Shown here piece by piece: positions 7,295-22,527 of a stretch of DNA of 38,778 bases. The notes beneath the pieces were generated by a model, which was not told the DNA's origin, ran no database searches, and saw nothing but the letters and a program-made list of their open reading frames with translations. This DNA is from Verrucomicrobiota bacterium. GTDB lineage: Bacteria; Bacteroidota; Bacteroidia; Chitinophagales; UBA8649. Both the position numbers and the translations under genes were made by a program. The stretch is from NCBI GenBank assembly GCA_017853115.1, contig JAFMKE010000005.1:1-38778 (forward strand), written 5' to 3'. The number at the start of each line of letters is the position of its first letter. The first letter of the stretch is position 1.

Positions 7295-7855
7295 ATGACA
7301 GGCAAAGAAACCATCATTTTAGGAATTGACCCCGGCACGAGTATTTTTGGCTATGGTGTCATCCGAATAGAAAAAAAGCAAATTCAACTCATTGCCTTGG
7401 GTAGTGTTAACCTGAGTAAATACAGCAATCACCAACTCAAATTAAAATATATTTTTGAACGAGTTCGCTATTTAGTAGATGAATATAAACCAGATTTGTG
7501 TGCCATTGAAGCACCTTTCTTTGGTAAAAATGTCCAATCCATGTTGAAGTTGGGCAGAGCTCAGGGCGTTAGCATGGCGGCAGTACTCACACGAGATATT
7601 CCCATAGAAGAGTACTCCCCGCGTAAAATTAAACAAGCCATAACAGGAAATGGTAATGCAAGCAAAGAACAAGTGGCTGCAATGCTTCAGAGTATCTGCA
7701 AATTCAAAGAAATGCCAAAAAATCTAGATGCAACTGACGGCTTAGCGGTAGCTGTGTGTCATCACTTTCAAACCTCAGGAAGAATACAAGGAAAAACAAA
7801 CAACAAGGGATGGAAGGGCTTCATTCAAGACAACCCTGACCGAATCAAATCCTAA
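7295..7855 (+). CDS. ruvC: Holliday junction resolvase RuvC
   Basis: Dimeric endonuclease that resolves Holliday junctions with RuvAB. The 186 aa protein has the RNase H-like fold and the acidic metal ligands: Asp in ILGIDPGTSIFGYGVI (Asp12), Glu in LCAIEAPFFGKN, and the paired Asp residues in NLDATDGLAVAVCHH near the C-terminus. SMLKLGRAQGV is the usual family helix. A roughly 25-residue basic tail follows. It is a single-gene unit whose stop overlaps the stop of the convergent HIT gene by 2 bases (the shared CTAA at 7852-7855), leaving no room for a separate terminator. Confidence 0.95.
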   Translation: MTGKETIILGIDPGTSIFGYGVIRIEKKQIQLIALGSVNLSKYSNHQLKLKYIFERVRYLVDEYKPDLCAIEAPFFGKNVQSMLKLGRAQGVSMAAVLTRDIPIEEYSPRKIKQAITGNGNASKEQVAAMLQSICKFKEMPKNLDATDGLAVAVCHHFQTSGRIQGKTNNKGWKGFIQDNPDRIKS

Positions 7856-8256
7856 AGGTAATTTTGAAATGCCTTAGCAATATTTTCACTAATTAACTTC
7901 ATCTCCGCTGCATCTATAATCAACTTGGGATTGGCAAAATTTAAATCACCCATTCCATTAATCGGTACTAAATGAATATGGGCGTGCGGAACTTCCAATC
8001 CAATAACCGCCACTCCTATTCGAGTGCATGGGATAACTTCCTTGATAGCTAGTGCCACCTTTTTAGCAAACAATTGCAAACCTGCATACTCATCATCTTT
8101 CAAATCAAATAGATAATCTACTTCCTTTTTCGGAATCACCAAGGTATGCCCTTTTGCTAAGGGATTAATATCCAAAAATGCATAAAAGTCTTTCGTTTCC
8201 GCGATCTTATATGACGGTATCTCCCCCTTTACTATTTTGGAAAAAATACTAGACAT
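7852..8256 (-). CDS. HIT-family nucleotide-binding protein
   Basis: Histidine-triad hydrolase or transferase acting on nucleotide phosphoramidates or related substrates. The triad VPHAHIHLVPI (HxHxHxx) is intact, with ANPKLI a little downstream; the N-terminal half has FSKIVKGEIPSYKIAE and LVIPKKEVDYL. The frame is open to 8355, but the ATG at 8256 gives a 134 aa protein beginning MSSIFSKIV, the normal HIT start, and sits one base after the greA stop. It is therefore translated behind greA in one operon. The N-terminal zinc cysteines found in some HIT proteins are absent (SIFSKIV where others have CIFCKI). Confidence 0.9.
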   Translation of the reverse strand: MSSIFSKIVKGEIPSYKIAETKDFYAFLDINPLAKGHTLVIPKKEVDYLFDLKDDEYAGLQLFAKKVALAIKEVIPCTRIGVAVIGLEVPHAHIHLVPINGMGDLNFANPKLIIDAAEMKLISENIAKAFQNYL

Positions 8257-8257
8257 C

Positions 8258-8728
8258 CTAAAAAGTAATGGAAATGATTTCAAACTCCACCACACCTGCC
8301 GGAACCTGAATTTGGGCTGTTTCACCAACTTTCTTACCCAATAGACCTTTACCAATCGGAGAATCTACTGAGATTTTATTTTGCGACAAATCCGCTTCAG
8401 GTGCAGATACAATCTGGTAGGTAAAAACTTTATTCACCTTAAGATTACGAACTTCGACTTTACTCATCAAAACCACCTTTGAGGTATCCAATTGTGATTC
8501 ATCCAACACGCGTGCCCTTGAAAACGCATCATCCAACTCAGCAATCTTCTTTTCCAATAAGCCTTGAGCCTCTTTGGCTGCATCATATTCCGCATTTTCG
8601 GATAAATCGCCCTTTTCTCTCGCTTCGGCGATAGCTTGCGCAGCTTCTGCCCGTCCCTTGGTCTTTAATTCATGTAATTCAGCCTTTAACTTCTCAAAGC
8701 CCTCTTTCGTTAAGTATATAAAACTCAT
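8258..8728 (-). CDS. greA: Transcript cleavage factor GreA
   Basis: Rescues backtracked RNA polymerase by stimulating cleavage of the RNA 3' end through the secondary channel. The 156 aa protein has the N-terminal coiled coil (about 1-75) with the tip REKGDLSENAEYDAAKEAQ, which carries the Asp and Glu that hold catalytic metal, and a C-terminal FKBP-like domain ending SPIGKGLLGKKVGETAQIQ and VEFEIISITF. The HIT gene follows after one base. The 76-base upstream gap holds a putative promoter followed by a strong terminator-like hairpin, so the greA leader may be subject to early termination. Confidence 0.96.
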   Translation of the reverse strand: MSFIYLTKEGFEKLKAELHELKTKGRAEAAQAIAEAREKGDLSENAEYDAAKEAQGLLEKKIAELDDAFSRARVLDESQLDTSKVVLMSKVEVRNLKVNKVFTYQIVSAPEADLSQNKISVDSPIGKGLLGKKVGETAQIQVPAGVVEFEIISITF

Positions 8729-8742
8729 ATTTGTCGATATTT

Positions 8743-8778
8743 AAAAAACAAAAACGTTTCTACCTGTTGGCAGAAACG
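8743..8778 (-). terminator. Rho-independent terminator between the porV-ompA gene and greA
   Basis: On the minus strand a stem CGTTTCT / AGAAACG (8778-8772 with 8761-8755) encloses a short inner GC stem (CC/GG) and a 4-base loop. A T-rich run, TTTTTGTTTTTT (8754-8743), follows at once. It lies 26 bases after the stop of the PorV-OmpA gene and 14 bases before the greA ATG. It closes the TonB-receptor operon and also sits in the greA leader. Confidence 0.85.
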
Positions 8779-8789
8779 CTCTTGTAATG

Positions 8790-8804: not shown

Positions 8805-10313
8805 TTATTCAACAGAAAGCTCTACTCTTCTATTTTGAGCTTTGCCTTCTTCTGTATCATTATCTGCGATAGGATCAGCTTCGCCGAATCCTTTCGCTTT
8901 CATTCTGTCTGAATCAATTCCTTTATCCTTCAAGTAAGTTTTCACAGTGAATGCACGTTCTCTTGAAAGTTGTAGGTTGTCATCTTCGTTGCCAACATTA
9001 TCTGTGTATGCCGAGATGCTGAGAAAAGCCTTTTCTTTATCTTTCATAAAATCTGCTAATTGATCCAAAGTAGCTTTTGATTCTTCCGTTAAGTCAGAAC
9101 TACCCGTTTCAAAACTAATAGAAGCTGCAATAGTTTCTATCAATTCAACTTCACTTTTCGATAACTTAATTTTCTTGCCCTTTTTCTTATTTTCAGAGTC
9201 CATGGCATCTTTTCCTTCATCCTCATCACCACAAGGATCTTCTCCATCACCCAAACCGAATCGAAGCCCTATACTGTGTGTTCCACCGAAAGGATCTGAA
9301 GTTCTGTATGAATAATCGATACCCATAGTTGGACCGTTCTCTTTAAATGGAACTTCTACAGACATACCAGCTGAAATTCCGGTATAAGCACTAGTTCTTT
9401 GCTCAGGAACTAAGAGTCCGGGCTCATAGCGATAACCCGCTCTTACCATAAACATCTCTTTGAATCCATATTCAAAACCACCACCAAAATTATCCTTACC
9501 AAAAGTATTTGATGTAAACTGTCCAGTAAGTGTTATTCGATGCAAATTGTATGCACCCGCACATTGATACTCTGGACCTAACCAGAAATCGTAAGACGCA
9601 CCAATCGTTAACTGAGCAGGTAACTCAAATTTTTGAGCCACAGCAGATTGTGTACCTAAGAATTCATTATCACCACGAACACCTCTAAATGTAAATCCAT
9701 CACCACTATATTTCATTGGCGTTCCTAGGTTACGAATACTCACACCAAAACGCAAGTTTTCTTTCTTACCTAATATATACTGAAGACCTGCATCCAAAGC
9801 AAATCCCATTGCACGAATATTTTCTACACTTTCAGAAATTAAACGGATTGTTGCTCCACCATAAATTCTGTTAGAGAAAGTACGCGCAAAGGTTACTCCT
9901 AAGTTTAAGTAACGCGGCTTGAAGGTTCCAAGTCCATTTCCTGGATCAGGATTAGCCTCTGTTGTTCTGAAAAAATCACCAGGACTTAGAGACATCAATT
10001 CAACTCCAACAACGTTATCTTCACCTAACTTACCAGCAAACCCTGCCTGAGTTACTTGGGTTTGGGATCCTTGAAACCATAGCGTTTGCGCTAAGACCAC
10101 ATCCATTTTCTTCACGTGAGCTAAACCGGCTGGATTTAAACGCATAGATTCAACTCCAGTTATACGCGCAGTATACATATCCCAGAAACCCGTTGAACGC
10201 GGCCATCCATTGATTAACAATTGATATGCTCCATTCTCACCAATACGGTCAGGGTTACCTGCGAATACATTAGTGGAAAGTAAAGCTATTACGACTATTA
10301 AAATTCTTTTCAT
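8805..10313 (-). CDS. PorV/PorQ-family outer-membrane protein fused to an OmpA peptidoglycan-binding domain
   Basis: A 502 aa exported protein. Residues 1-18 are a signal peptide (MKRILIVVIALLSTNVFA). Residues about 20-350 form a FadL-like barrel of the PorV/PorQ family, with ESMRLNPAGLA near the N-terminus and repeated beta strands such as PRYLNLGVTFARTF and GIDYSYRTSDPFGGTHSIGL. A charged linker (about 352-380, rich in Glu, Asp and Lys) leads to an OmpA domain (about 388-502) with SISFETGSSDLTEES, SAYTDNVGNEDDNLQLSRER and AQNRRVELSVE. The Asp and Arg that grip diaminopimelate are kept. PorV delivers type IX secretion cargo to the PorU sortase; standard PorV lacks an OmpA tail, so this paralogue may anchor a barrel to the cell wall. 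It is the last gene of the TonB-receptor operon. Confidence 0.85.
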   Translation of the reverse strand: MKRILIVVIALLSTNVFAGNPDRIGENGAYQLLINGWPRSTGFWDMYTARITGVESMRLNPAGLAHVKKMDVVLAQTLWFQGSQTQVTQAGFAGKLGEDNVVGVELMSLSPGDFFRTTEANPDPGNGLGTFKPRYLNLGVTFARTFSNRIYGGATIRLISESVENIRAMGFALDAGLQYILGKKENLRFGVSIRNLGTPMKYSGDGFTFRGVRGDNEFLGTQSAVAQKFELPAQLTIGASYDFWLGPEYQCAGAYNLHRITLTGQFTSNTFGKDNFGGGFEYGFKEMFMVRAGYRYEPGLLVPEQRTSAYTGISAGMSVEVPFKENGPTMGIDYSYRTSDPFGGTHSIGLRFGLGDGEDPCGDEDEGKDAMDSENKKKGKKIKLSKSEVELIETIAASISFETGSSDLTEESKATLDQLADFMKDKEKAFLSISAYTDNVGNEDDNLQLSRERAFTVKTYLKDKGIDSDRMKAKGFGEADPIADNDTEEGKAQNRRVELSVE

Positions 10314-10341
10314 ATGAGTATTTTAAAAAGTTTAAATCAAT

Positions 10342-13300
10342 TTAGAAGTTACTTACATCTGTAGGTCTCATAAATATTGCAGCTTTCACTACAGTTTCAC
10401 CTAAATCAAATGCATCGATATGAATAATATACGATCCACTTCCAATTGGAATTCGTTGTGAATTATTCAAATCCCAAGAAATTGAATTATCTAAGTTAAT
10501 TCCTGAACCCGTTGGTTGACCAGAGCTTAGCTCTTGACGACTAGATTCAGTATTTGCAGCTGTACCAACAGCTCTATCAAACTGACGAACCAGTTTACCG
10601 TCTAAAGTAAAAATACTCACCTGACAACGATCAGGAAGACCGATAATCTTTACTTCATTCGATACTTGGTTTTGTTCATAAGTAGAGAAAGCATAATACG
10701 GATTCGGTACAACTCGAATATTATCCAATGCTGACTCAGCTAATTCCGTTTGGTTCTCTAACGGCTCTAAACCTTCAGTACTGAATCGGTAACGCGGTAA
10801 GCCAAGATTGCCGTCAGGCGTTTGCGTTTCAGAAGTTATGAGTGACTCGAACGGACGCTCGATATTAATATCAATGCGAGTTCTTGTAGGAATATCTGCA
10901 GGATTAACGAATTCATATTCCTCGTCAACTACCGGTATAAAGGTGTAAATAATATCCTCATATACCTCAGCAATAGCAGCTGGTATAACAGCACCTGGAG
11001 CAGGATTAATTGTGTTATTGGTTAATGCACTAAAAGCGGCAGCACCATTGTCATAACGCGTATTGAAAACATATACATAATGCATGCCCCCCCAAATTGG
11101 ATTCTTATATGAATTATCCAAACCAGGAATAGGTGTATTTGCATCTGTGATATCGCTTGTTGGATTCCAAGTATAATCTCTACCTCTGTATGCAGACAAT
11201 TCTGATGATTCACCGAAAGCGATGTTCAGCCTTTCACCTGTTTCCACATTAATTGCATAACCTGGGAATTTACCTATCCGCGGTCCTGTTGCGTCATCTT
11301 GACGCAATGCACCTTTCGGTGTGCCTTGAGCAGTGAAAGCGATACGCTCACCAGTTTCAAATACTATACAATCTGACCACTCATTTGAATTTGGCGTAAG
11401 AACAATAGATACTGTTCTTAACTCATCTAAATTATTTGGTTGATTCCTTACGACGTTATTGATACCAGTAACATCCCAAACATCCCATCTGAAGCCAGGG
11501 CCCCATAAGTATTCAGGTCTATCTTCATCTACAACAGCAGGCAAGCCTACACTTGGGTTTGCATAGTTATTGGCTAAACAATAAGGAGCAATTCCTCCAT
11601 CCAAAATAGTCGCCCCAAACAACGAAGGCGTTGTCAGTGTCGAAGGGTCATAGAAAGTTGTATTTTGATTTAAGTTATCGTATCCATGCGAATCAAAAAT
11701 ATCAGGATATAAACCTCCTTGAGAAGAACCCGCTCTAATCCAGTTTTGCGGCTCAGCAAATCCTTGATCTTTAATGAAAGATAACCATTGAACTGTTGGA
11801 TCCTCAAAAGTTATGGAACTGCTTATCACTCCGTATACATCGTTACCATTGTCTAGATTAGTTCCTTTAGGAGATGGTAGGTTTACATTCACCGAAATAC
11901 CATACTCCTCAATGATTTGTTCGTATTGTCTATCAAATGGACGTTCTGCAAAAATCGTATCAATACGAGAGCCTTGGTCATTGTACACATATATCTTCCA
12001 GAAGCTGCTATCAGCAAATGATAAAGAAGGCACATAAGAAAATGTGGTATCAGTACCAATAACCGTATCAACAGTAAGCTCAAATGATTCAAAAAACAAC
12101 TCAAAATTCACATTTTGCAAATTCAATGGATCTACCACTTTAGCTCGAATTGGATCGAAGCCTAGATCGTATTCTAGGACATCTTCATAATAGAATGGTG
12201 GTTCAAGTACCGCTTGCTCAGATGCTTCTGTCAAGCGAATGGCAAGTCCTCCATTTCCTTGTCCCTCTAATCTGAAAACACTAAGTGGATCGTTTGCTTC
12301 AGCCTGAAGAATAGTACCGCCATTTCTTGAATCGATTACATGCGGTATGGCAGAATATATTTTGAAGTTTCCACGCCCCTGCTTAAATATTTCTAAGTCT
12401 GGCAAAGTTGGAATTGCTGGGAAAGGATTGTAATCAGCCACAGCATACGATACCGCAGCAAAGAAATAACGTTTGTTATTTACTAAGGCACGCTCTCCTG
12501 TTGCAAAGGCATCTTCACTAACTACAATGGTACGAGTAATACCCTCATTTCCACCGGTAACACGCAACTCCGCGTTGTAAGTGCCTGCGTTATTATTTGT
12601 GTAATTATATACGCTCGATATACCATCTTCCAAATCCGCTTGGAAGATTAATCGCGCTTGTCCTTCATCGTTCAAATCTTGCGCGGTAACTCGATCATTT
12701 TTCAACTGATACACTAAATAACCTTGGAATCGGTACAAGGAGTCATTACTTGCCACACCATTATCTGGTAAGGCATGTGCCTCTTGATAAAGCTCTCCAA
12801 AATTGTTAGAGCTAGGTCCATTCACCAAATTAATAATCAACTCCTTACTTAGCTCACGTATTGCCAAAGTTGGCGCATCTGGTCCATCAATAATATCAAA
12901 ATTGTTGTCGAAAAGATTTTGGGCTAAATCATCCGCTATACCTAATTCAGCTTCAATATCAGGCGTTCCGTCATAGTTATCTGGAAACACAGTAACCGCT
13001 CCAATGGTAATACGTTGAGGATCACCCGGCTGAAGTGTAAAAGGACCTGAATTTTGAACAAATCGATAATCCTGAGCTGTCAATGCTGGTGTCCAAGGAA
13101 CAGACCACTGCGTCGGGTCGTTTGGATTACCAGATAAACAGTAATTCGTTAGTATAGTACCACCTAGACCACTACCACCAAATGTAAAAGGAGAACCATC
13201 CTTCCATCGTCCCGTTTGGAAGTTTCTAAACTCAGCCGCATCATCAGGGTCTTGCTGAACATTGTTTCCTGCTGAATTAATAAAGAAAGCGAAAGAAGAT

Positions 13301-14427
13301 AAACCTAATTGGTTTCCATTATCATCTAGTGGACCTTCAAAATAATCAATACCTAAAATAGGTGGATTAGGTCCATATTGGTCATCCACAGGATCTCCAT
13401 TATATAAGAAACCCATTTCTCTAATCGTATCACACCCTACCATATCATCATCGTAATCACCTAAATCAGGATCTACAAATACCCCCATATAAGTTTCAAA
13501 GAGAGGGTTAGGTGATTTTTTAACTATCTCGAAAGTGTAAAATGTCATGTCATTCAATGCATCAGCTGTCTGATATGCAAAAGCAAGACAATTAACTTGC
13601 ACACCCATTGGAGTACCACCTGTACGACCATGAATATTCCCATTGTCGTTAATCACCCAGAAAATCATTTGATCTGCAAAATTCTGAGTTAAAATACCAT
13701 TATCGTCAGATACACCAATAACTGGGAAATCACCTTTCGTTGGATCATAAATATCATTTCCGTCAACATCAAAGAACGGAGCCAAAGTACCCTCATTGTA
13801 ATACTTGTCCGTCTCATTTTCCAAATAGTAAGGATTCCCCTTACCTGGCCATCTTAGAATTTGTAAAGGATCACTATTTGGATCTCCAGCATCTTTTGTA
13901 GCTAATATATCCGCACGAGTTACCGTAACACCAGGGTCAGTAAACAAGGAACGAAATCGAGCAATATCAGGACCGTATACTTTAAAGTGTTCATCAAAAG
14001 TCTGGCACTTGTCAAACGATGCCTCACCAAAATTTCCATAAAGCGGACCAGTAAAGAAATCATGCCCTTGATTTCTATATGTTTGAGCAGCACACTGTAA
14101 ATTACCTCCATTATCCAACCCAGTAAACCATAAAGCTCCTGCAAACAATATATTTATCGGGGTGGCTCCTGAAGCAGGGTCTATCTTTGGAATCTCATAT
14201 TTGGCAGTTTCAACACCATCCCACCAAAAATCACCACCACCAAGAATTCTTGCGCGCACATTATTGATGTCCAAATCAATTTGGCTTGTAGAAGGTGAAC
14301 AATCAAAAACACCTGTTTTACCTCCACCAATTCCTGATTCATTCGAGGTATTTCCAACCAAAAATCTTTCAGCACAAACTATGTTTACCATACTGAGCGC
14401 TAAACCTATTATCCATATTCTTTTCAT
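10342..14427 (-). CDS. Large secreted protein with type IX-like C-terminal domain, function unknown
   Basis: A 1361 aa exported protein that I cannot assign to a known enzyme. Residues 1-19 are a signal peptide (MKRIWIIGLALSMVNIVCA). The body is rich in Asp, Asn, Gly and aromatic residues in beta-type repeats, including Asp-rich stretches (FVDPDLGDYDDDMVG, FFDVDGNDIYDPTKGDFP) that look like calcium sites. The last 130 residues have VVPNPYYAFS, then CQVSIFTLDGKLVRQFD and GSGSYIIHIDAFD. This is the pattern of a type IX (Por) sorting domain or FlgD-like Ig fold, though the sequence runs on past it to RPTDVSNF. It sits 19 bases after the TonB receptor and 28 bases before the PorV-OmpA gene. It probably acts at the cell surface with both. 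Confidence 0.7.
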   Translation of the reverse strand: MKRIWIIGLALSMVNIVCAERFLVGNTSNESGIGGGKTGVFDCSPSTSQIDLDINNVRARILGGGDFWWDGVETAKYEIPKIDPASGATPINILFAGALWFTGLDNGGNLQCAAQTYRNQGHDFFTGPLYGNFGEASFDKCQTFDEHFKVYGPDIARFRSLFTDPGVTVTRADILATKDAGDPNSDPLQILRWPGKGNPYYLENETDKYYNEGTLAPFFDVDGNDIYDPTKGDFPVIGVSDDNGILTQNFADQMIFWVINDNGNIHGRTGGTPMGVQVNCLAFAYQTADALNDMTFYTFEIVKKSPNPLFETYMGVFVDPDLGDYDDDMVGCDTIREMGFLYNGDPVDDQYGPNPPILGIDYFEGPLDDNGNQLGLSSFAFFINSAGNNVQQDPDDAAEFRNFQTGRWKDGSPFTFGGSGLGGTILTNYCLSGNPNDPTQWSVPWTPALTAQDYRFVQNSGPFTLQPGDPQRITIGAVTVFPDNYDGTPDIEAELGIADDLAQNLFDNNFDIIDGPDAPTLAIRELSKELIINLVNGPSSNNFGELYQEAHALPDNGVASNDSLYRFQGYLVYQLKNDRVTAQDLNDEGQARLIFQADLEDGISSVYNYTNNNAGTYNAELRVTGGNEGITRTIVVSEDAFATGERALVNNKRYFFAAVSYAVADYNPFPAIPTLPDLEIFKQGRGNFKIYSAIPHVIDSRNGGTILQAEANDPLSVFRLEGQGNGGLAIRLTEASEQAVLEPPFYYEDVLEYDLGFDPIRAKVVDPLNLQNVNFELFFESFELTVDTVIGTDTTFSYVPSLSFADSSFWKIYVYNDQGSRIDTIFAERPFDRQYEQIIEEYGISVNVNLPSPKGTNLDNGNDVYGVISSSITFEDPTVQWLSFIKDQGFAEPQNWIRAGSSQGGLYPDIFDSHGYDNLNQNTTFYDPSTLTTPSLFGATILDGGIAPYCLANNYANPSVGLPAVVDEDRPEYLWGPGFRWDVWDVTGINNVVRNQPNNLDELRTVSIVLTPNSNEWSDCIVFETGERIAFTAQGTPKGALRQDDATGPRIGKFPGYAINVETGERLNIAFGESSELSAYRGRDYTWNPTSDITDANTPIPGLDNSYKNPIWGGMHYVYVFNTRYDNGAAAFSALTNNTINPAPGAVIPAAIAEVYEDIIYTFIPVVDEEYEFVNPADIPTRTRIDINIERPFESLITSETQTPDGNLGLPRYRFSTEGLEPLENQTELAESALDNIRVVPNPYYAFSTYEQNQVSNEVKIIGLPDRCQVSIFTLDGKLVRQFDRAVGTAANTESSRQELSSGQPTGSGINLDNSISWDLNNSQRIPIGSGSYIIHIDAFDLGETVVKAAIFMRPTDVSNF

Positions 14428-14446
14428 AATAATTCCTCTTTAATTC

Positions 14447-17400
14447 TTAAAAGTTTATCGAAGCACCTAAGTACACACGTCTTGGCGCAGTATATTTATT
14501 TGGCGAATTCACTTTTGCATTATACAAATCTCTGTATGATTGAGGGGATACTGCTGATTCACTTGTTAACTGACCTAAGGCACTTTCCAAGAAACCATCA
14601 TTATCAGGAGAACCAGTGTATCGGTATACATCAACCACATTAGCTGTTCCAATTACGTTATCTATCCATAAGTATACATCAAAGTATAAACGCTTTCCAT
14701 CTTTGTCTTCGTTCTTTTTAGCTAATTCAACAGAGAAGGACTTACTAACTTTCAAGTCCATTCGATAGTTCCAGCCAATTCTCGAACCATTAATGTATCC
14801 TAATGTGGTAGCTCTACCTCCATTAGCTGCATCTGGCGTCACGTTTTCTTGTCGAGTGTAAGGTGTACCTGAACGAGCTTGAGCTAATAAATTGACTCCA
14901 AAATTGGATAAAATCTGTTTTCCTTTTTTGGTTACTGGACCATCATAGTCTTTACCCTCACCGAAACGATAATCAAAACTCACGTTCATCGAATGTCTAG
15001 AATCGAAATCTAGAGGATTAACTGAACGGAAATTCGTTCCAGAATTACGAACCACTTGAATCTGCGTCGCATCATCACTACCCGTTCCCTCAGCAAATTG
15101 TAAGGTATAATTGGCTGTGATTCGAATATTTTTTGTTCTTCGCAAATCATATCCAAACTCAAAACCTTTGGTATTTCCAAAATCGATATTATCAAAAGAG
15201 TAATACAAATTACCTTGCGCTCCATTTACACCATCATAGCGTCTAACCTGAATTTGATCTCTAAACTCTTTGTAGTACGCAGAGAAAGTAATCGCAGAAG
15301 ACGCAGTCACTTTTTGTTTAAATCCTAACTGAAAGTCAACCGTAGTTTCAGGTCTAAGATTCGGATTATTAATCGCAGATGCACCGTTTTGGTCAAAGAA
15401 ATAATAATCTAATGGACTACCAATCGAACGATTCACTCTGAATCCACCACTAATTCGCGATTGTGGTGTCTGAGATAAAACATCGTAGTGAGCAAAGAAA
15501 AGGGCGTTATCTGTAATATTGAATGAAAATTGCAAACGTGGCATGAATACATACTGTGTTTTGTAATCTTCAAACGCCAAATCCAAACGGTAGTTTTCAT
15601 CTCTTGTATTGTCTCCTTGTTCATCCGACTTAACAGGAACAGCCTGACTTGAACCAAGCGAGTTGTAATTTCTTACCTGAACACCTTCCTTGTCATAGAA
15701 AGTATCTCCATCACGATATCCGACTACACTTCCACCTGTTGTTCCATCGCTGGTGTAAACCGCATAATCACCACCAATATTATCTGGTCTATCACCACCG
15801 AACTCGTCCGCAGTTAAGGATCCGAAAACCGAATAAGGATCTTGTAAAACTTGTTGATTCGCATCGTATCGGTCAACACGGAAGCCTAAACGGAAGGTTA
15901 AATCTTTTAACTGAAATTTATCTTCAATGTATCCAGCAGCATACAAAGGCATAAAAGGGGCTATCGGTCTAGTATTTACACCATTCTCATCTCTTTTTTC
16001 CCAGAAATCTGCAAAACTAACTGCACCAGAGGTACGATTACCGTATACATCATAACCTCTATAGTCTCTTTGAACAGGGGTTAAACCATTGTATTCAATC
16101 CCTATCAACTCATCAGGTGAAAAATAGGATATATCAAACGCTTCTAAAGGAAAAGCCGAAACATTAATAAATGAATCCGGAGCAATTCCATTGGCCTCTC
16201 TAAAATTTTCATCGAAATACGATTGGATTCGCTCACCGTCTTCATTGAAAGAAACCGGTGTGTATCCATAATAAATGGAATCGCTAAAGAAAATTGGTGC
16301 ACCATTAACCGGAGTTAAAACCCCATTATTGTAGAAGAAAGGGTTATCTCTATCAAACTCCAAATGATTATTTACATTCGCGTTCGCAGCATCCCATAAC
16401 GATAAAGGAGAAATAGCATGTCTTCTCTGAACAAACTGCTCTGCTTCAATACCAAATGTGATAGAGTGTTTATTTCTACTTTCTGCTCCTGGTTTTAATA
16501 CGTCAAATCCGGAGTTAATTTGGAAACGATATTTCTCATCATCGTTATCTACACCTACACCATTATATTGTCTTCCTGTATTGAACCAAATATTGTAAGG
16601 AATCTCTGCACGCTCACCATTAACCAATGCTAATGAGGCTTGTAAGTCCTGAATACCTCCAGCAATGAAGTTTTGACCTTCTTCGTTCGGCGTACCTGTC
16701 AAATCAAAGAAGGTTTCCGTGTAAGCCGAACCTTGTGCGTTTACATCACTAGGCGTAAAATAAACCTCTGAGTCTGTAAAATTTGAAAGCTCCCAGAACT
16801 CACTATTTTCACTTGGAGAGAAAACCGGTGTACGTACTACATCAAAAGCACCGATATAACCATAATTCCAATAGTCTTTACCATGGCTATCATCTTCATA
16901 CTCCCTCTTATATTTCTCAAAATCAAATTGTACTTCGTAGAAACCATTTTGAATCGGGCCTTGTTTTTGACCTTCTTCTAAATTCTTACTAAAGTTTTGA
17001 GAGAAACGAATAAATGTCTTATAGTTTTGCTCCTTATATAAAGGATTGTTTTCAAAATTCAGCAATGAATACCCTTCAATCCACTGGTGAAACTGTTTGT
17101 AATCCATATTACCACCTATGGTCAAAAATTTGCCATCACCCAAACGAAAATCGAATTTAGCATTTAATCTTGCTTGATTATCCACGGTATTTCGCTTGAT
17201 ATTGTTAACCTCTAGAGAGTCAAAAGTCAAAAGCTCTGCTCGTGTGGTTAAAATACCTTCCTCTGTTAACACAAGTGGTCGCTCTTGAATACTTTCGAAG
17301 ATTTCATCTTTTACTTTATACATGTCAACAGCAGATGGTCTCGGATCTTTTTGTCGTTGAAACTCTCCATTAATTGCATATCCAATAACCGTTTGACCTT

Positions 17401-18181
17401 CATCATTCTTTACAAGAGGACCAGCCAGGTTTACGTTAACTAAATCAAAACGCCATCTATCCAAGGAAGACTGCACTTCAACACCACCAGCTAATTTACG
17501 CGCACCACCTTTAGTTGAGATATTGATTACTCCCGAAGTAGAGTTTCCAAACTTCGCAGAAACACCACCCGTGATAATATCAATTTGTTCAACAGCTGAA
17601 ACCGGAAGGTTAACCGTACCATTTACACGTATACCATCTACATAATAAACGATTGCATCTCCACGACCACCACGAATGTTAATCCCTCCTCCTTTATCTG
17701 ACTGCTGCACACCAGCAGTTGTTGAGGCAATATTTTGAATATTACGTGTAGGTAAATCGGCAATATCCTCTGCAGTAACGGTATTTTTGGAGGACGTTTC
17801 ACCTGCATCAATCAACGGAACCTTATACTGCACTACAACTACCTCTTCAATGATTTGCTCAGAAGGAGATAATCGTTTGTCCATGTATGTGGTTTGGTCA
17901 TTTTTAACAACCACACCCAATTCACGAATAGTCGTGTATCCAATGTTTGAAAATTGTACATCGTACTTACCCGGACTCAATGGTTTAATCGAGTAAAAAC
18001 CATCAAAATCTGTAGTAGCTCCAACACCAGTTGGTTTTCCGTTCTCCACAATTGCTACCGATGCGAAGGGAATACCTTCACCGTTTTCATCAGTAATCTT
18101 TCCACTAATCTCACCACTTTGAGCAAAAAGACCAAGAGAAAGTATGGAAAACACGAGCGCTAAAAAGTAATTTTTCTGCAT
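14447..18181 (-). CDS. TonB-dependent receptor with N-terminal carboxypeptidase-regulatory-like domain
   Basis: A 1244 aa outer-membrane receptor. Signal peptide 1-21 (ends SLGLFAQS). An Ig-like CarboxypepD_reg domain follows at about 24-110 (GEISGKITDENGEGIPFASV, then STYLE DFDGFYSIKPLSPGKY). The plug domain is at about 125-230 (VTAEDIADLPTRNIQNIA, INIRGGRGD, YYVDGIRVNG, VSAKFGNSTSGVINI), and a long 22-strand-type barrel ends RRVYLGASINF with a terminal aromatic residue. TonB-dependent receptors take up large or scarce substrates using proton motive force. No SusD-type lipoprotein lies beside it, so it is not a SusC of a classical polysaccharide locus. It is the first gene of the three-gene operon; the substrate cannot be read from the sequence. 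Confidence 0.9.
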   Translation of the reverse strand: MQKNYFLALVFSILSLGLFAQSGEISGKITDENGEGIPFASVAIVENGKPTGVGATTDFDGFYSIKPLSPGKYDVQFSNIGYTTIRELGVVVKNDQTTYMDKRLSPSEQIIEEVVVVQYKVPLIDAGETSSKNTVTAEDIADLPTRNIQNIASTTAGVQQSDKGGGINIRGGRGDAIVYYVDGIRVNGTVNLPVSAVEQIDIITGGVSAKFGNSTSGVINISTKGGARKLAGGVEVQSSLDRWRFDLVNVNLAGPLVKNDEGQTVIGYAINGEFQRQKDPRPSAVDMYKVKDEIFESIQERPLVLTEEGILTTRAELLTFDSLEVNNIKRNTVDNQARLNAKFDFRLGDGKFLTIGGNMDYKQFHQWIEGYSLLNFENNPLYKEQNYKTFIRFSQNFSKNLEEGQKQGPIQNGFYEVQFDFEKYKREYEDDSHGKDYWNYGYIGAFDVVRTPVFSPSENSEFWELSNFTDSEVYFTPSDVNAQGSAYTETFFDLTGTPNEEGQNFIAGGIQDLQASLALVNGERAEIPYNIWFNTGRQYNGVGVDNDDEKYRFQINSGFDVLKPGAESRNKHSITFGIEAEQFVQRRHAISPLSLWDAANANVNNHLEFDRDNPFFYNNGVLTPVNGAPIFFSDSIYYGYTPVSFNEDGERIQSYFDENFREANGIAPDSFINVSAFPLEAFDISYFSPDELIGIEYNGLTPVQRDYRGYDVYGNRTSGAVSFADFWEKRDENGVNTRPIAPFMPLYAAGYIEDKFQLKDLTFRLGFRVDRYDANQQVLQDPYSVFGSLTADEFGGDRPDNIGGDYAVYTSDGTTGGSVVGYRDGDTFYDKEGVQVRNYNSLGSSQAVPVKSDEQGDNTRDENYRLDLAFEDYKTQYVFMPRLQFSFNITDNALFFAHYDVLSQTPQSRISGGFRVNRSIGSPLDYYFFDQNGASAINNPNLRPETTVDFQLGFKQKVTASSAITFSAYYKEFRDQIQVRRYDGVNGAQGNLYYSFDNIDFGNTKGFEFGYDLRRTKNIRITANYTLQFAEGTGSDDATQIQVVRNSGTNFRSVNPLDFDSRHSMNVSFDYRFGEGKDYDGPVTKKGKQILSNFGVNLLAQARSGTPYTRQENVTPDAANGGRATTLGYINGSRIGWNYRMDLKVSKSFSVELAKKNEDKDGKRLYFDVYLWIDNVIGTANVVDVYRYTGSPDNDGFLESALGQLTSESAVSPQSYRDLYNAKVNSPNKYTAPRRVYLGASINF

Positions 18182-18214: not shown

Positions 18215-18243
18215 CAAAGTTAATTAAAATATTAAGAAACAAA
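18215..18243 (-). promoter_or_regulatory. Promoter of the TonB-receptor operon
   Basis: On the minus strand a TTTG (18243-18240) is followed after 17 bases by TAACTTTG (18222-18215), matching the Bacteroidota -33 and -7 elements. The -7 box is 34 bases before the receptor ATG. The inverted repeat ACTCA-TT-TGAGT at 18244-18255 abuts the -33 box and could be a regulator site. Confidence 0.7.
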
Positions 18244-18297: not shown

Positions 18298-19227
18298 TTA
18301 TTCGTCGAATGCGGTTAATATTTTTTGGGCCAAAATATCCGCTAACTTCAGCTTGGACTGATGTGTCCAACCCGCCACATGTGTAGAGAAAAGTACTTTT
18401 CGGGTAGCTTGTAAAGCAGCAATTTGTTCTTTTTCTTTGACCGAATATGAAGAAATTTGCTCATTTTCGAAGACATCGATACAGGCTCCCAAGACTTTTC
18501 CCTCAAGAAGCCCTTCGAGGAGGTATTCTTGATTGAGTACTTTTCCGCGCGAAGTATTAATAAGGTAGAATGGTTTATGCATGCGATTGATAAAATCACG
18601 ATTAAGGAAATTTCGCGTATCATCTGTTAGAGGGAGATGAATAGATAAAACATCCACTTCGGAATAAATTTGTTCTAAATCCGCATATTGTGCATAAGGA
18701 CTTTTTGTTGTTTTATATTTATCGTAATACAATACATCAACATCAAAACCACTTAACTTCTTAGCTAGGGCCTGCCCGGTGTTTCCAAAACCAATTAAAC
18801 CTACAGTTTTTCCGCCCAGCTCTTCTCCTCGATTGTCCTCACGATGCCAATCAAAATGAATAACATCTCGGTGCGCGTCTTGAAGCTTATTAAATAAGGC
18901 GAGTAGCATACCAATAGCATGCTCAGCCACCGCATCTCTATTCCCTTCAGGCGAATTGAATACCCGCACTCCTTTTCGGTGCGCTTCATCCAAATCAATA
19001 ATCTCCAAGCCGCTTCCCAACCTGCCGATAACTTTCAAGTTTTTACTTTTAGCCAAAAAATCAGCATCTACATTAATCTTACTGTTAATGACTAAAATAT
19101 CAAAATCAGCAATCACCGCTTCTACTTCCTTTTGGTTAATATTTGGCAAGTAGATTGTTTTCACCCCTGCCGCTTGAAGCTTGTCTATTAATAGTTGATG
19201 AACTTGGTCGGTAATCAGCGCTTGCAT
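18298..19227 (-). CDS. D-isomer-specific 2-hydroxyacid dehydrogenase (phosphoglycerate dehydrogenase-like)
   Basis: NAD-dependent oxidoreductase of the D-2-hydroxyacid family, 309 aa. The N-terminal catalytic segment has KNLKVIGRLGSGLEIIDL, and the Rossmann fold has TVGLIGFGNTGQALAKKL (GxGxxG) followed by an acidic Asp in LYYDKYK. The catalytic set is visible: Arg in LINTSRGKVLNQEYLL, Glu in DVFENEQ and His in FSTHVAGWTHQSKLKL. It lacks the C-terminal ACT domain of long SerA proteins, so it may be a short 3-phosphoglycerate dehydrogenase or act on another 2-hydroxyacid. The start ATG overlaps the rsmA stop by one base, so the two genes are translationally coupled. Confidence 0.85.
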   Translation of the reverse strand: MQALITDQVHQLLIDKLQAAGVKTIYLPNINQKEVEAVIADFDILVINSKINVDADFLAKSKNLKVIGRLGSGLEIIDLDEAHRKGVRVFNSPEGNRDAVAEHAIGMLLALFNKLQDAHRDVIHFDWHREDNRGEELGGKTVGLIGFGNTGQALAKKLSGFDVDVLYYDKYKTTKSPYAQYADLEQIYSEVDVLSIHLPLTDDTRNFLNRDFINRMHKPFYLINTSRGKVLNQEYLLEGLLEGKVLGACIDVFENEQISSYSVKEKEQIAALQATRKVLFSTHVAGWTHQSKLKLADILAQKILTAFDE

Positions 19228-20006
19228 TATTTCTGAGTTGCTATTAGTTTAACTAAATTAAGAAAGTCATCAAGTGATAATTGCTCGGGTCTTAAATTGA
19301 ACAAATCGAGACCTTTAACTTCTTTGTCACGAAGCAGTTGTTTGAGGCTATTTCTAAGGGTCTTTCTTCGCTGGTTAAAAGCCAATTTAACCACTTGCTT
19401 GAAGAGCTGCTGGTCGATATCAAAATCTTGCGCACGTCTTTTCATTACCATCACACCACTCAGCACTTTGGGTGGTGGATTAAATGCTTCACGGGGAACA
19501 TCAAAAAGATACTCAGTCTCATAGTACAACTGAGTCAAGACGCTTATCACCCCATAGGTCTTAGATCCTTCTTTGGCACAAATTCGAGCTGCTACTTCTT
19601 TTTGAAACATCCCGAGCATCAAAGGAATCTTATCTTTATGATCCAGGATATGAAAAACAATCTGTGAGGAAATGTTGTAGGGGAAATTACCCACCACCGC
19701 ATAATTCTTAGCAAAAACATCTTGTAAATCCAGTTGAAGAAAATCTGCTGCTATCACCTTTCCCTTTAACAATGGGTATTCTTTCTCGAGGTGCTCAACC
19801 CAACGCTTATCGAACTCCACCAGTTTATAATCCGTTCGATCTTGGAGTAAGGCACTTAATGCTCCTGCACCAGGTCCAACCTCCAATAAAGGAAGATTGC
19901 CTGCACAAGCAAGTATAGCTTCATAAATTCGCGACAACACCGAGCGATCATTCAGGAAATGTTGCCCTAAAGACTTATTCAACCGGATATCTTGATGTTT
20001 TGCCAC
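19227..20006 (-). CDS. rsmA: 16S rRNA dimethyladenosine transferase RsmA (KsgA)
   Basis: Makes the N6,N6-dimethyl adenines near the 3' end of 16S rRNA (helix 45), a late step of 30S assembly. Motifs include KSLGQHFLND, LLEVGPGAGALSALL (SAM motif I) and VVGNFPYNISSQIVFHIL (motif IV, NxPY). The basic C-terminal RNA-binding domain has VKLAFNQRRKTLRNSLKQLL. The start is uncertain: a GTG at 20006 gives a 260 aa protein with about ten residues before KSLGQHFL, close to E. coli, while a TTG at 20027 adds seven residues. No ATG is available in this region. It overlaps the dehydrogenase by one base and diverges from pepA. Confidence 0.92.
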   Translation of the reverse strand: MAKHQDIRLNKSLGQHFLNDRSVLSRIYEAILACAGNLPLLEVGPGAGALSALLQDRTDYKLVEFDKRWVEHLEKEYPLLKGKVIAADFLQLDLQDVFAKNYAVVGNFPYNISSQIVFHILDHKDKIPLMLGMFQKEVAARICAKEGSKTYGVISVLTQLYYETEYLFDVPREAFNPPPKVLSGVMVMKRRAQDFDIDQQLFKQVVKLAFNQRRKTLRNSLKQLLRDKEVKGLDLFNLRPEQLSLDDFLNLVKLIATQK

Positions 20007-20034
20007 GGATACTAATTTAGGTAACAAATATTGC

Positions 20035-20042
20035 TATTTTTG
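20035..20042 (+). promoter_or_regulatory. Candidate -7 element for pepA
   Basis: TATTTTTG fits TAnnTTTG and lies 20 bases before the pepA ATG, in the short gap to divergent rsmA. The -33 region has no good TTG, so confidence is limited. Confidence 0.4.
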
Positions 20043-20062
20043 TAAACTATTCAAGTAGATGT

Positions 20063-21457
20063 ATGGAACAAATTAAACTAAGTAATAAAAGAAGCAGTCA
20101 GAGTCCTCATCTTCTTTATCTCTCAGATAAACTTTCTCTTGTGGATGGAATGCCGGCATACGCAGCAAAATTCATTGAGGAAGGGAAAGACAAAAACTTT
20201 CTAAGTTTTTCAGGTGATAAAGGGATAATTGCGACCATTAAGGCGGAAGAATCGTTAGAAAAATGTAGACGAGCGGGGCATCAGTTTTTTCAATATGCAA
20301 AAAACGAAAACATTTGGAATTGGAACCTTGAAGGTAAGGCTTCGGAAGAACAAAAACTCGCTTTTCTTGAAGGTCTTGCCTTATCTACCTATACCTTCAA
20401 CAAATACAAGAGTAAAAAAGAAGAGCAGACCATACACATCCATGCAGATGGAATAGATGAATCGAAACTGAAAGAATTGGGGTCTGTTGTAGCTGCTACT
20501 TGTATAGCACGAACGCTGGTGAATGAGCCTCATTGTTTTTTAAATGCGACGCAATATTCGAAGGAGATTAAATCATTGGCCAAAACCTTTGGGTTTTCGC
20601 TGAAGGTATGGGACAAAGAAAAAATAACCAAAGAGAAAATGGGTGGTATACTCGGCGTGAATCGCGGTAGTATTCAAGAGCCTACTTTCAATATTCTCGA
20701 GTACAAACCATCCCATGCTGTTAATAAACAAGCAATTGTTTTAGTAGGTAAAGGTGTTATGTATGATACGGGTGGATTAAGTTTAAAACCGACACCCAAT
20801 AGTATGGACATGATGAAGAGCGACATGGGTGGCTCAGCTGCAGTAGTTGGTGCATTTTGTGCAGTAGCTGCTCAGAAGCTCCCGATTCATCTCGTTGGAC
20901 TTATTCCAGCAACTGATAACCGACCTGGGCTGGATGCCATAGCCCCAGGAGATGTGCTTACCATGTATAGTGGAAAAACGGTGGAAGTATTAAATACCGA
21001 TGCTGAAGGGAGATTGGTATTGGCTGATGCATTGCATTATGCCAAACGTTTAAAGCCTGAATTAGTTATGGATTTTGCCACCCTAACTGGAGCCGCTGCA
21101 CGAGCTTTAGGACCACAAGGAATTGCCTGTATGGGTAATGCTCCAGAAACTACCAAAGATGCTTTAAAAGCGAGTGGACAAGCAGTACATGAACGCTTAT
21201 TGGAGTTTCCGATGTGGGAAGAGTATGAAAGTATGCTGAAGTCCGAAATTGCCGACATCAACAACTTGGGTGGTCCAGTTGCAGGACAAACTACAGCGGG
21301 GATGTTTTTACAACATTTTGTTGATTATCCTTGGATGCATTTTGACATAGCTGGGATGGCCTTTTTACAAAAACCTGATTCATATCGAGGTAAGAACGGT
21401 ACGGGCGTAGGTGTTCGTTTGTTGTATAATTTTCTTAAAAATAGAAGTCAAGCCTAA
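20063..21457 (+). CDS. Leucyl aminopeptidase, M17 family
   Basis: Hexameric dimetal aminopeptidase that removes N-terminal residues from peptides in the cytosol. The 464 aa protein keeps the M17 active site: LVGKGVMYDTGGLSLKP (Lys and Asp metal ligands), MDMMKSDMGGSAAVVGA (Asp) and VLNTDAEGRLVLADAL (Asp, Glu and the catalytic Arg). The C-terminal part ends with GQTTAGMFLQHFV and YRGKNGTGVGVRLL. The N-terminal 150 residues are the less conserved macro-like domain. The stop codon overlaps the pdxA start by one base (TAATG), so the two genes form a coupled pair. Some M17 relatives are cysteinylglycinases, and activity cannot be resolved here. Confidence 0.93.
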   Translation: MEQIKLSNKRSSQSPHLLYLSDKLSLVDGMPAYAAKFIEEGKDKNFLSFSGDKGIIATIKAEESLEKCRRAGHQFFQYAKNENIWNWNLEGKASEEQKLAFLEGLALSTYTFNKYKSKKEEQTIHIHADGIDESKLKELGSVVAATCIARTLVNEPHCFLNATQYSKEIKSLAKTFGFSLKVWDKEKITKEKMGGILGVNRGSIQEPTFNILEYKPSHAVNKQAIVLVGKGVMYDTGGLSLKPTPNSMDMMKSDMGGSAAVVGAFCAVAAQKLPIHLVGLIPATDNRPGLDAIAPGDVLTMYSGKTVEVLNTDAEGRLVLADALHYAKRLKPELVMDFATLTGAAARALGPQGIACMGNAPETTKDALKASGQAVHERLLEFPMWEEYESMLKSEIADINNLGGPVAGQTTAGMFLQHFVDYPWMHFDIAGMAFLQKPDSYRGKNGTGVGVRLLYNFLKNRSQA

Positions 21458-22527
21458 TGCAAGATAAAAAACCTGTAATTGGTATTACCATCGGAGACAT
21501 TAATGGAATTGGTCCCGAAGTTATAATCAAATTACTCTCAGACGATCGAATCTATCAGTTTTGCACCCCTGTCGTTTATGGATCTACTCGTGTATTATCC
21601 TTTTATAAGAAATTATTAAATGATAAACGATTCCGCTACAGTAGTTTGACCGATTGGTCCAAGCTCATGGATAAACAAACGAATGTCGTGAGTACGATAG
21701 TTGATCAGCCTGAGATTGAAGTTGGTAAAGAAACTGAAATTGCTGGCAAGTATGCATTAGATGCTATTAATCAAGCCATTAGCGATTGGAAAGAAGGAAA
21801 GATCGATGCGCTTATCACTGCGCCAATCAACAAACATAATGTGGCCAAAGCTGCGGAAGGTAGTTTCACCGGGCATACAGAATATCTCGCTCGAGAAACA
21901 GGGGCAAAAGACAGCCTTATGATATTATTCGCAGATAACATCCGCATGGGCTTAGTTACCAATCATATTCCAGTAAGCGAGATCAGTTCAAAACTTAATA
22001 AAGAAATTGTCCAGCAGAAAATAGAAATGCTCAATAGAAGCCTTGTTCAAGACTTTTTCCTTAACAAACCTCGAATTGCAGTACTATCATTGAATCCACA
22101 TGCGGGGGATAAAGGATTAATTGGTTCTGAAGAGCTCGAGATTTTAGTTCCTGCCATTAACCAATGCTACCGCAACGGAATTTTAGCCTTTGGTCCTTAC
22201 CCTGCTGATGGCTTGTTCGGCTCGGGCAATTTCAAAAAATTCGATGCCGTGTTAGCTATTTATCATGATCAAGGCCTAGCTCCATTCAAAGCCTTGACGT
22301 TTGACGATGGCGTAAATTTTACTGCTGGTTTAGATATCATTCGAACCTCTCCCGATCACGGAACAGCCTTTGATATAGCAGGCAAAAATTTGGCTTCTCC
22401 GCAATCTATGCGTCAAGCATTATTTGCTGCTCTCGATATTGTAGAAAGTCGCGCGGAATATAAGGAATGGACAGAGGATAAGCTAAAAACCCGCAATCGA
22501 AAAAGTAGATCCAGAAAAATGGATTAA
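21457..22527 (+). CDS. pdxA: 4-hydroxythreonine-4-phosphate dehydrogenase PdxA
   Basis: Oxidises 4-phosphohydroxy-L-threonine in the DXP-dependent pathway to pyridoxal 5'-phosphate. The 356 aa protein has ITIGDINGIGPEVIIKLL at the N-terminus, the metal-binding His in FTGHTEYLA, and LSLNPHAGDKGLIG and YHDQGLAPFKAL with further metal-site His residues. It ends DIIRTSPDHGTAFDIAGK plus a basic tail (RKSRSRKMD). It is coupled to the aminopeptidase by a one-base overlap. Its stop overlaps the stop of convergent def by 2 bases within the shared TTAA (22524-22527). Confidence 0.95.
   Translation: MQDKKPVIGITIGDINGIGPEVIIKLLSDDRIYQFCTPVVYGSTRVLSFYKKLLNDKRFRYSSLTDWSKLMDKQTNVVSTIVDQPEIEVGKETEIAGKYALDAINQAISDWKEGKIDALITAPINKHNVAKAAEGSFTGHTEYLARETGAKDSLMILFADNIRMGLVTNHIPVSEISSKLNKEIVQQKIEMLNRSLVQDFFLNKPRIAVLSLNPHAGDKGLIGSEELEILVPAINQCYRNGILAFGPYPADGLFGSGNFKKFDAVLAIYHDQGLAPFKALTFDDGVNFTAGLDIIRTSPDHGTAFDIAGKNLASPQSMRQALFAALDIVESRAEYKEWTEDKLKTRNRKSRSRKMD

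Follow-up and report, generated by a model that had tools for sequence, protein, structure and literature searches.

A conserved gene unit of a TonB-dependent receptor, a large protein with a PorZ/PorU-like C-terminal domain and a PorV-family barrel in Bacteroidota

In P. gingivalis, PorU is held by PorV and PorZ by PorQ (PMC5562754); the C-terminal domains (CTDs) of PorZ and PorU stay unprocessed (PMC8545088, PMC10202324), and the PorV-like cognate barrels may shield them from cleavage (PMC10202324, PMC8545088). PorZ is a carbohydrate-binding surface protein (PMC8545088). Type A cargo of the type IX secretion system (T9SS) is served by one common PorV, and type B CTD genes have their own shuttle gene directly downstream (PMC12618676).

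The gene triplet analysed here encodes a TonB-dependent receptor (TBDR), a large protein that we call BIG, and a PorV-family barrel, PorV3. It resembles PorU:PorV and PorZ:PorQ (PMC5562754, PMC10202324) in combining a protein with a PorZ/PorU-like CTD with a barrel of the PorV/PorQ family, in genomes that carry a T9SS; it differs in that BIG matches no sortase or beta-propeller model, PorV3 forms a separate clade, a TonB receptor belongs to the unit, and the genuine PorU, PorV, PorQ and PorZ are encoded elsewhere in the genome. PorV2-PorU2 (NF052325, NF052324) likewise sets a PorV-family barrel beside a large CTD protein, but the barrel clade and the partner are different, and there is no receptor in the stretch read. 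In SprB-SprF and Fjoh_3952-3951 (PMC12618676) a substrate gene is followed, as here, by a dedicated shuttle-barrel gene; unlike these type B systems (PMC12618676), the triplet has a PorZ/PorU-like CTD and a barrel that is not of the PorP/SprF kind. SusCD and other receptor-lipoprotein pairs (PMC12578637) share the order of receptor then large surface protein and are present in many copies in some genomes, whereas BIG is neither a lipoprotein nor a SusD, the receptor is outside the SusC/RagA class, and there is an additional barrel partner (PMC12578637). BamG-BamH (PMC12611786, PMC12578637) also pairs a FadL-fold barrel with a large surface protein that it holds; the BAM components were set aside, on published descriptions only, BamH being a lipoprotein and BamG being bound to BamA (PMC12611786, PMC12578637). 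That a CTD protein can come with its own barrel is thus already known in broad terms. We found no precedent for joining such a pair to a TonB receptor, and the literature searched, limited to open-licence papers, yielded no description of the triplet.

The operon and the proposed assembly

In the window (the whole stretch of DNA analysed, 38,778 nucleotides) the genes for TBDR (14447..18181), BIG (10342..14427) and a PorV-OmpA fusion (8805..10313) are three minus-strand open reading frames separated by gaps of 19 and 28 bases, exactly as an earlier note on this DNA had claimed, and they are confirmed as one operon. The strong terminator that it had placed after the last gene is likewise there: an intrinsic terminator with a 17-pair stem and T-tract at 8748..8785 on the minus strand, 3' of the PorV-OmpA gene and before greA. 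The note had also placed a "good promoter" ahead of the receptor. No E. coli-type promoter was found by a promoter scan on the right strand in the gap upstream of TBDR; a Bacteroidota-type pattern, TTTG-N17-TAACTTTG, does match on the minus strand at 18215..18243, 33 bases ahead of the TBDR start in a gap of 116 bases, and its function is inferred. The pattern is common by chance in the window (3 sites against 2.7 expected), so only its position, on the right strand within that gap (about 0.004 expected), is notable. Judged by eye only, each product begins with a Sec-type signal peptide, as claimed, and no lipobox is seen in any of the three N-termini.

The flanks hold GreA, HIT and RuvC on one side (7295-8728) and a dehydrogenase, KsgA, PepA and PdxA on the other (18298-22527), an order kept widely within the class, whether the triplet is present or absent. 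Neither gene neighbourhoods nor Rfam offered a clue to a ligand: no enzyme, metabolic gene, regulator or riboswitch was found near the triplet.

We favour, with moderate confidence and without any experiment, the reading that the operon encodes a single outer-membrane assembly in which BIG, exported by the T9SS, is docked on PorV3 and serves import through TBDR. BIG would be made with a Sec signal, exported via the translocon of the genome's T9SS and handed to PorV3, its own barrel, where it would stay docked by an uncleaved CTD in the manner of PorZ on PorQ and PorU on PorV. Lying beside or over TBDR, it would capture or process a ligand, which the receptor would then import with TonB energy; the job that SusD does for SusC would fall not to a lipoprotein but to a protein that the T9SS exports and a barrel anchors. 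In the window lineage, the OmpA domain of the barrel would also pin the assembly to peptidoglycan. T9SS export and permanent docking of BIG are inferred by analogy with PorU, PorZ and the type B substrates; receptor contact and import are inferred as well. Contact between BIG and the receptor rests on gene order and co-duplication alone; it is the adjacency of the receptor gene to BIG that suggests capture and import.

BIG, its C-terminal domain and its barrel

BIG (1361 aa) is conserved at full length across Bacteroidia. Cys43 and Cys141 are invariant in all 67 rows of the alignment and Cys332 in 65 of them, and the tail carries a strongly conserved K-W-F-G-x-x-R-P-x-D, with Asp1357 present in 67/67. 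The window BIG has no Pfam match and, among curated models, only a weak C-terminal match to PorZ, and 27 orthologues gave nothing against Pfam except weak FlgD_ig matches in four and two single matches at chance level. There is no match to the SusD family, nor, by eye, a lipobox in these 27 N-termini.

The identity of the CTD (residues 1228-1361; 10345..10746, minus strand) emerges from several lines of evidence. The PorZ-model match of the window BIG is confined to this domain and scores 20.5 bits where 260 are needed, over positions 655-751 only. BIG is thus not a PorZ, which has two beta-propellers ahead of its CTD, and it also falls outside the type A CTD family TIGR04183 (11.5 bits, cut-off 23). 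Among the orthologues, 21/27 match the PorZ model (best 8.5e-10), 7/27 the PorU model and 5/27 TIGR04183 (E 0.01). A CTD profile run against the PDB has PorZ (5M11, E 0.004) and PorU (6ZA2, E 0.012) among its few matches, a result that is weak alone because unrelated NHL-repeat proteins score slightly better. An AF2 model of a 1198-aa orthologue, built on the 67-row alignment (mean pLDDT 89.2, pTM 0.74), has PorZ 5M11 as its best PDB match in Foldseek (125 columns, E 2.3e-5), which, from its length and from the sequence searches, we place at the C-terminal domain. Taken together, profiles and predicted structure show the BIG CTD to be homologous to those of PorZ and PorU and nearer to these than to TIGR04183. 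This PorZ/PorU-like domain therefore ties the triplet to the T9SS.

Foldseek matches of BIG to GH94 and GH116 are partial and of low TM-score and are not taken as evidence of enzymatic activity, and a role as a replacement for PorZ was rejected, PorZ being encoded separately in the window genome. In one locus (L094:1253-4897) BIG-like sequence is split over two neighbouring genes of 613 and 589 aa, one corresponding to the N-terminal region and the other to the middle and C-terminal region, and each has a CTD of the same type at its end; the split suggests that BIG consists of two separable modules. In many other proteins, each about 550 aa long, the match is limited to BIG residues 41-500 (G032:C204, G010:C194, G006:C253 and others); judged by these matches, the N-terminal module also exists alone.

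The 502-aa PorV-OmpA fusion combines a barrel (9255..10223, minus strand) with an OmpA-like domain (8829..9113, minus strand). It belongs to the PorV/PorQ family (NF033709), with 135.4 bits against a cut-off of 90, as do the triplet PorVs generally, 27/27 of which match the model; membership of PorV, PorQ or PorV2 proper is not met (73 bits with the PorQ model, cut-off 220). In a tree of 102 rows PorV, PorQ and PorV2 form one clade each and the Bacteroidia triplet PorVs another (100/100), while half of the triplet PorVs from other classes adjoin this last clade and the rest fall on the same side of the tree. Kinship of the triplet PorV, like that of the BIG CTD, is in this sense established.

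The OmpA domain is over its cut-off (PF00691, 81.6 bits, cut-off 27.2) and has, in TDNVG...LSRER, Asp438 and Arg453 of the usual Asp/Arg diaminopimelate motif, from which peptidoglycan binding is inferred. It is nonetheless a lineage-specific accessory: such a tail is present in 6/91 triplet PorVs, all within one clade of 17 rows (6/17), and most of the others are of about 355 aa and lack it. Thus of the PorV-like barrel tethered to peptidoglycan that the earlier note had proposed, the barrel stands and the tether does not, at least as a core part, and the fusion was rejected on this distribution as the defining feature of the triplet. One triplet PorV (L049:5086-7236), with 716 aa, has room for two OmpA-like domains and sits on the longest branch of the PorV tree.

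The window genome carries SprA, a PorU adjoining PorV (split over contigs C179 and C184), PorQ and a true PorZ (G000:C196, 582 bits). PorV2 followed by PorU2, both merely "putative" in NCBIfam, begin at G000:C202:17529 (L035). The operon itself was said to lack PorU, and it does, all of these parts lying elsewhere. The PorZ model has just three matches in this genome: PorZ, a 1692-aa frame near PorV2, which is most likely PorU2, and BIG. With PorV-PorU, PorV2-PorU2, PorQ and PorZ, and PorV3-BIG, each PorV-family barrel over the cut-off therefore has one partner with a PorU/PorZ-type CTD.

The rival that survives best, though we think it unlikely, is that BIG is ordinary T9SS cargo, shuttled by PorV3 from SprA and cleaved at its CTD by PorU, so that BIG is either set free or attached to LPS and in its freed form serves the receptor. 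The CTD does lie within the Ig-like superfamily shared by type A and PorZ domains, SprA and PorU are both at hand in this genome, and some BIG copies have no PorV beside them; yet the domain resembles the PorZ/PorU domains, which are retained, more than it does TIGR04183. A single PorV, moreover, serves type A cargo (PMC12618676), whereas each CTD gene here has a dedicated barrel beside it.

Distribution and duplication of the triplet

A protein search found BIG relatives, full-length and partial and with paralogues included, in 51/61 genomes, nearly all of the same order. The earlier note had held that absence of the triplet from other genomes would refute it. Within the order, TBDR, BIG and PorV stand in this sequence in 29/30 loci with flanks, the thirtieth (L067) stopping at a contig edge inside BIG; most lie in a block of KsgA, 2-hydroxyacid dehydrogenase, triplet, GreA, HIT, RuvC and UPF0104. 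In named genomes (80 loci from Chitinophagales, Saprospiraceae, Flavobacteriales, Crocinitomicaceae, Cryomorphaceae, Bacteroidales and others), 67 of 81 long BIG genes have a receptor before and a PorV after them, and GreA or HIT is also present at 61 of these 67 complete triplets. The remaining copies are second copies, orphans or at contig ends; the receptor is not directly before BIG in 11 of the 81, and some copies have no adjacent PorV.

Three loci (L080:1516-5514, L082:9866-13888, L113:1577-5608) hold an orphan full-length BIG without adjacent receptor or PorV, each following an unidentified open reading frame that ends in a similar HDI[FY]DT.E motif. In three others (L127:4419-13873, L105:9974-17542, L125:1-8168) BIG is in tandem, the second copy lying directly after the PorV of the triplet.

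In an even sample of Bacteroidia, 243/295 species, about four fifths, have BIG (E 1e-60) and 286/295 have SprA. SprA is present in 241 of the 243 BIG-positive species (Fisher p 1e-4, uncorrected for kinship), the two exceptions being drafts: one is 56% complete, and the family of the other includes SprA-positive relatives. It is present also in 45 of the 52 BIG-negative species, and the triplet is therefore not needed for the T9SS. Among the BIG-negative families are several whose genomes are highly complete, and BIG may have been overlooked because it is missing from several well-sequenced families. In three genomes of one such family (f21) GreA directly adjoins the dehydrogenase, so that the triplet is cleanly missing between kept flanks; in one genome of another (f19) a different gene lies between the two.

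Outside Bacteroidia a profile (A1) finds BIG relatives, most of them near 1100 aa long, and a genome often has many. A clean triplet of receptor, CTD protein and PorV, in the same order, was present in 35/39 loci read; as to the exceptions, in L188 and L217 the PorV was absent from the gene calls and found by a separate search, and L178 and L180 are unresolved. These triplets recur in unrelated neighbourhoods, and SprA is present in 20/20 of the genomes tested that carry them. In six of the genomes a PorV gene directly follows 33/39 BIG-type CTD hits, for a chance expectation well below one, and these adjacent PorVs make up 33/60 of the PorV genes over the cut-off there. One genome (G399) has 12 paralogous triplets, whose pairwise distances are correlated between TBDR and PorV (r=0.86), TBDR and CTD protein (0.78) and CTD protein and PorV (0.64), values reached in 0, 0 and 1 of 2000 permutations, respectively; hence the three genes are copied, and then diverge, as a set. 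The triplet is thus shown to be an ancient, co-inherited and co-duplicating unit tied to T9SS-positive genomes. The single surface assembly proposed in the earlier note holds as a genetic unit, docking and contact being inferred.

These data bear on a second rival, rather improbable in our estimate: that the triplet helps, as an accessory module, to build the envelope, for instance by supplying a surface glycan or lipid in the manner of PorZ; the receptor would then import nothing, and TonB energy would drive assembly or release. The single copy in a housekeeping neighbourhood of most Bacteroidia would suit this, as would the binding of carbohydrate by PorZ at the surface (PMC8545088) and the weak likeness of the BIG fold to a supersandwich domain known from sugar enzymes. 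Against it, one non-Bacteroidia genome has as many as 12 diversified copies, which fits ligand-specific uptake better, and a family that keeps its T9SS cleanly lacks the triplet. A third possibility is that the three genes have no functional connection and came together by chance, vertical inheritance having kept them in place. This could account for the synteny of the whole block from KsgA to RuvC in Bacteroidia, and is barely conceivable, being already contradicted by the same-order triplets that duplicate as a unit in unrelated neighbourhoods outside the class, and by flanks that remain where the triplet is missing.

Returning to the docked assembly that serves import, we would extend it, tentatively and with less than even confidence, to a phylum-wide class of outer-membrane import complexes: a TonB-dependent receptor would be served by a surface protein that the T9SS exports and that an uncleaved CTD holds on its dedicated PorV-family barrel. 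Such complexes would be an independent, T9SS-based counterpart of SusCD, usually in single copy in Bacteroidia and elsewhere in a dozen or more copies, each presumably ligand-specific. If true, T9SS secretion and TonB-driven import, two hallmarks of Bacteroidota, would be linked in one unit; a PorV paralogue with its own partner would join PorV-PorU, PorQ-PorZ and PorV2-PorU2; and the idea that cognate barrels protect CTDs (PMC10202324) would become directly testable on many natural pairs.

The receptor

TBDR (1244 aa, Sec signal) has a CarboxypepD_reg extension at its N-terminus (residues 25-104; 17870..18109, minus strand; PF13620, 60.2 bits), then a Plug domain (residues 129-217; 17531..17797, minus strand; PF07715, 48.2 bits), and also a beta-barrel domain (PF00593, 43 bits), all over the Pfam cut-off. 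A sequence search of the PDB returned nothing for TBDR or for BIG. TIGR04056, the SusC/RagA class, gave no match to the window receptor up to E 1, and the triplet receptors of other classes score below its cut-off. The earlier note had denied that the operon is a classical polysaccharide locus or the core T9SS. This is supported: the operon has neither SusD nor a SusC/RagA-class receptor, and the T9SS parts lie elsewhere in the genome. The order of receptor then surface protein and the CarboxypepD_reg extension might point to a SusCD pair of the classical polysaccharide-utilisation kind, but this is scarcely credible: it is contradicted on two defining features, BIG having neither SusD match nor lipobox and the receptor no TIGR04056 match, and enzyme genes are absent nearby. 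The fold comparison runs the same way: the AF2 model of TBDR (mean pLDDT 85.8) has no SusC among its top 50 Foldseek matches, and its nearest solved folds are siderophore-type TonB receptors, PfeA, FhuA, FpvA and similar.
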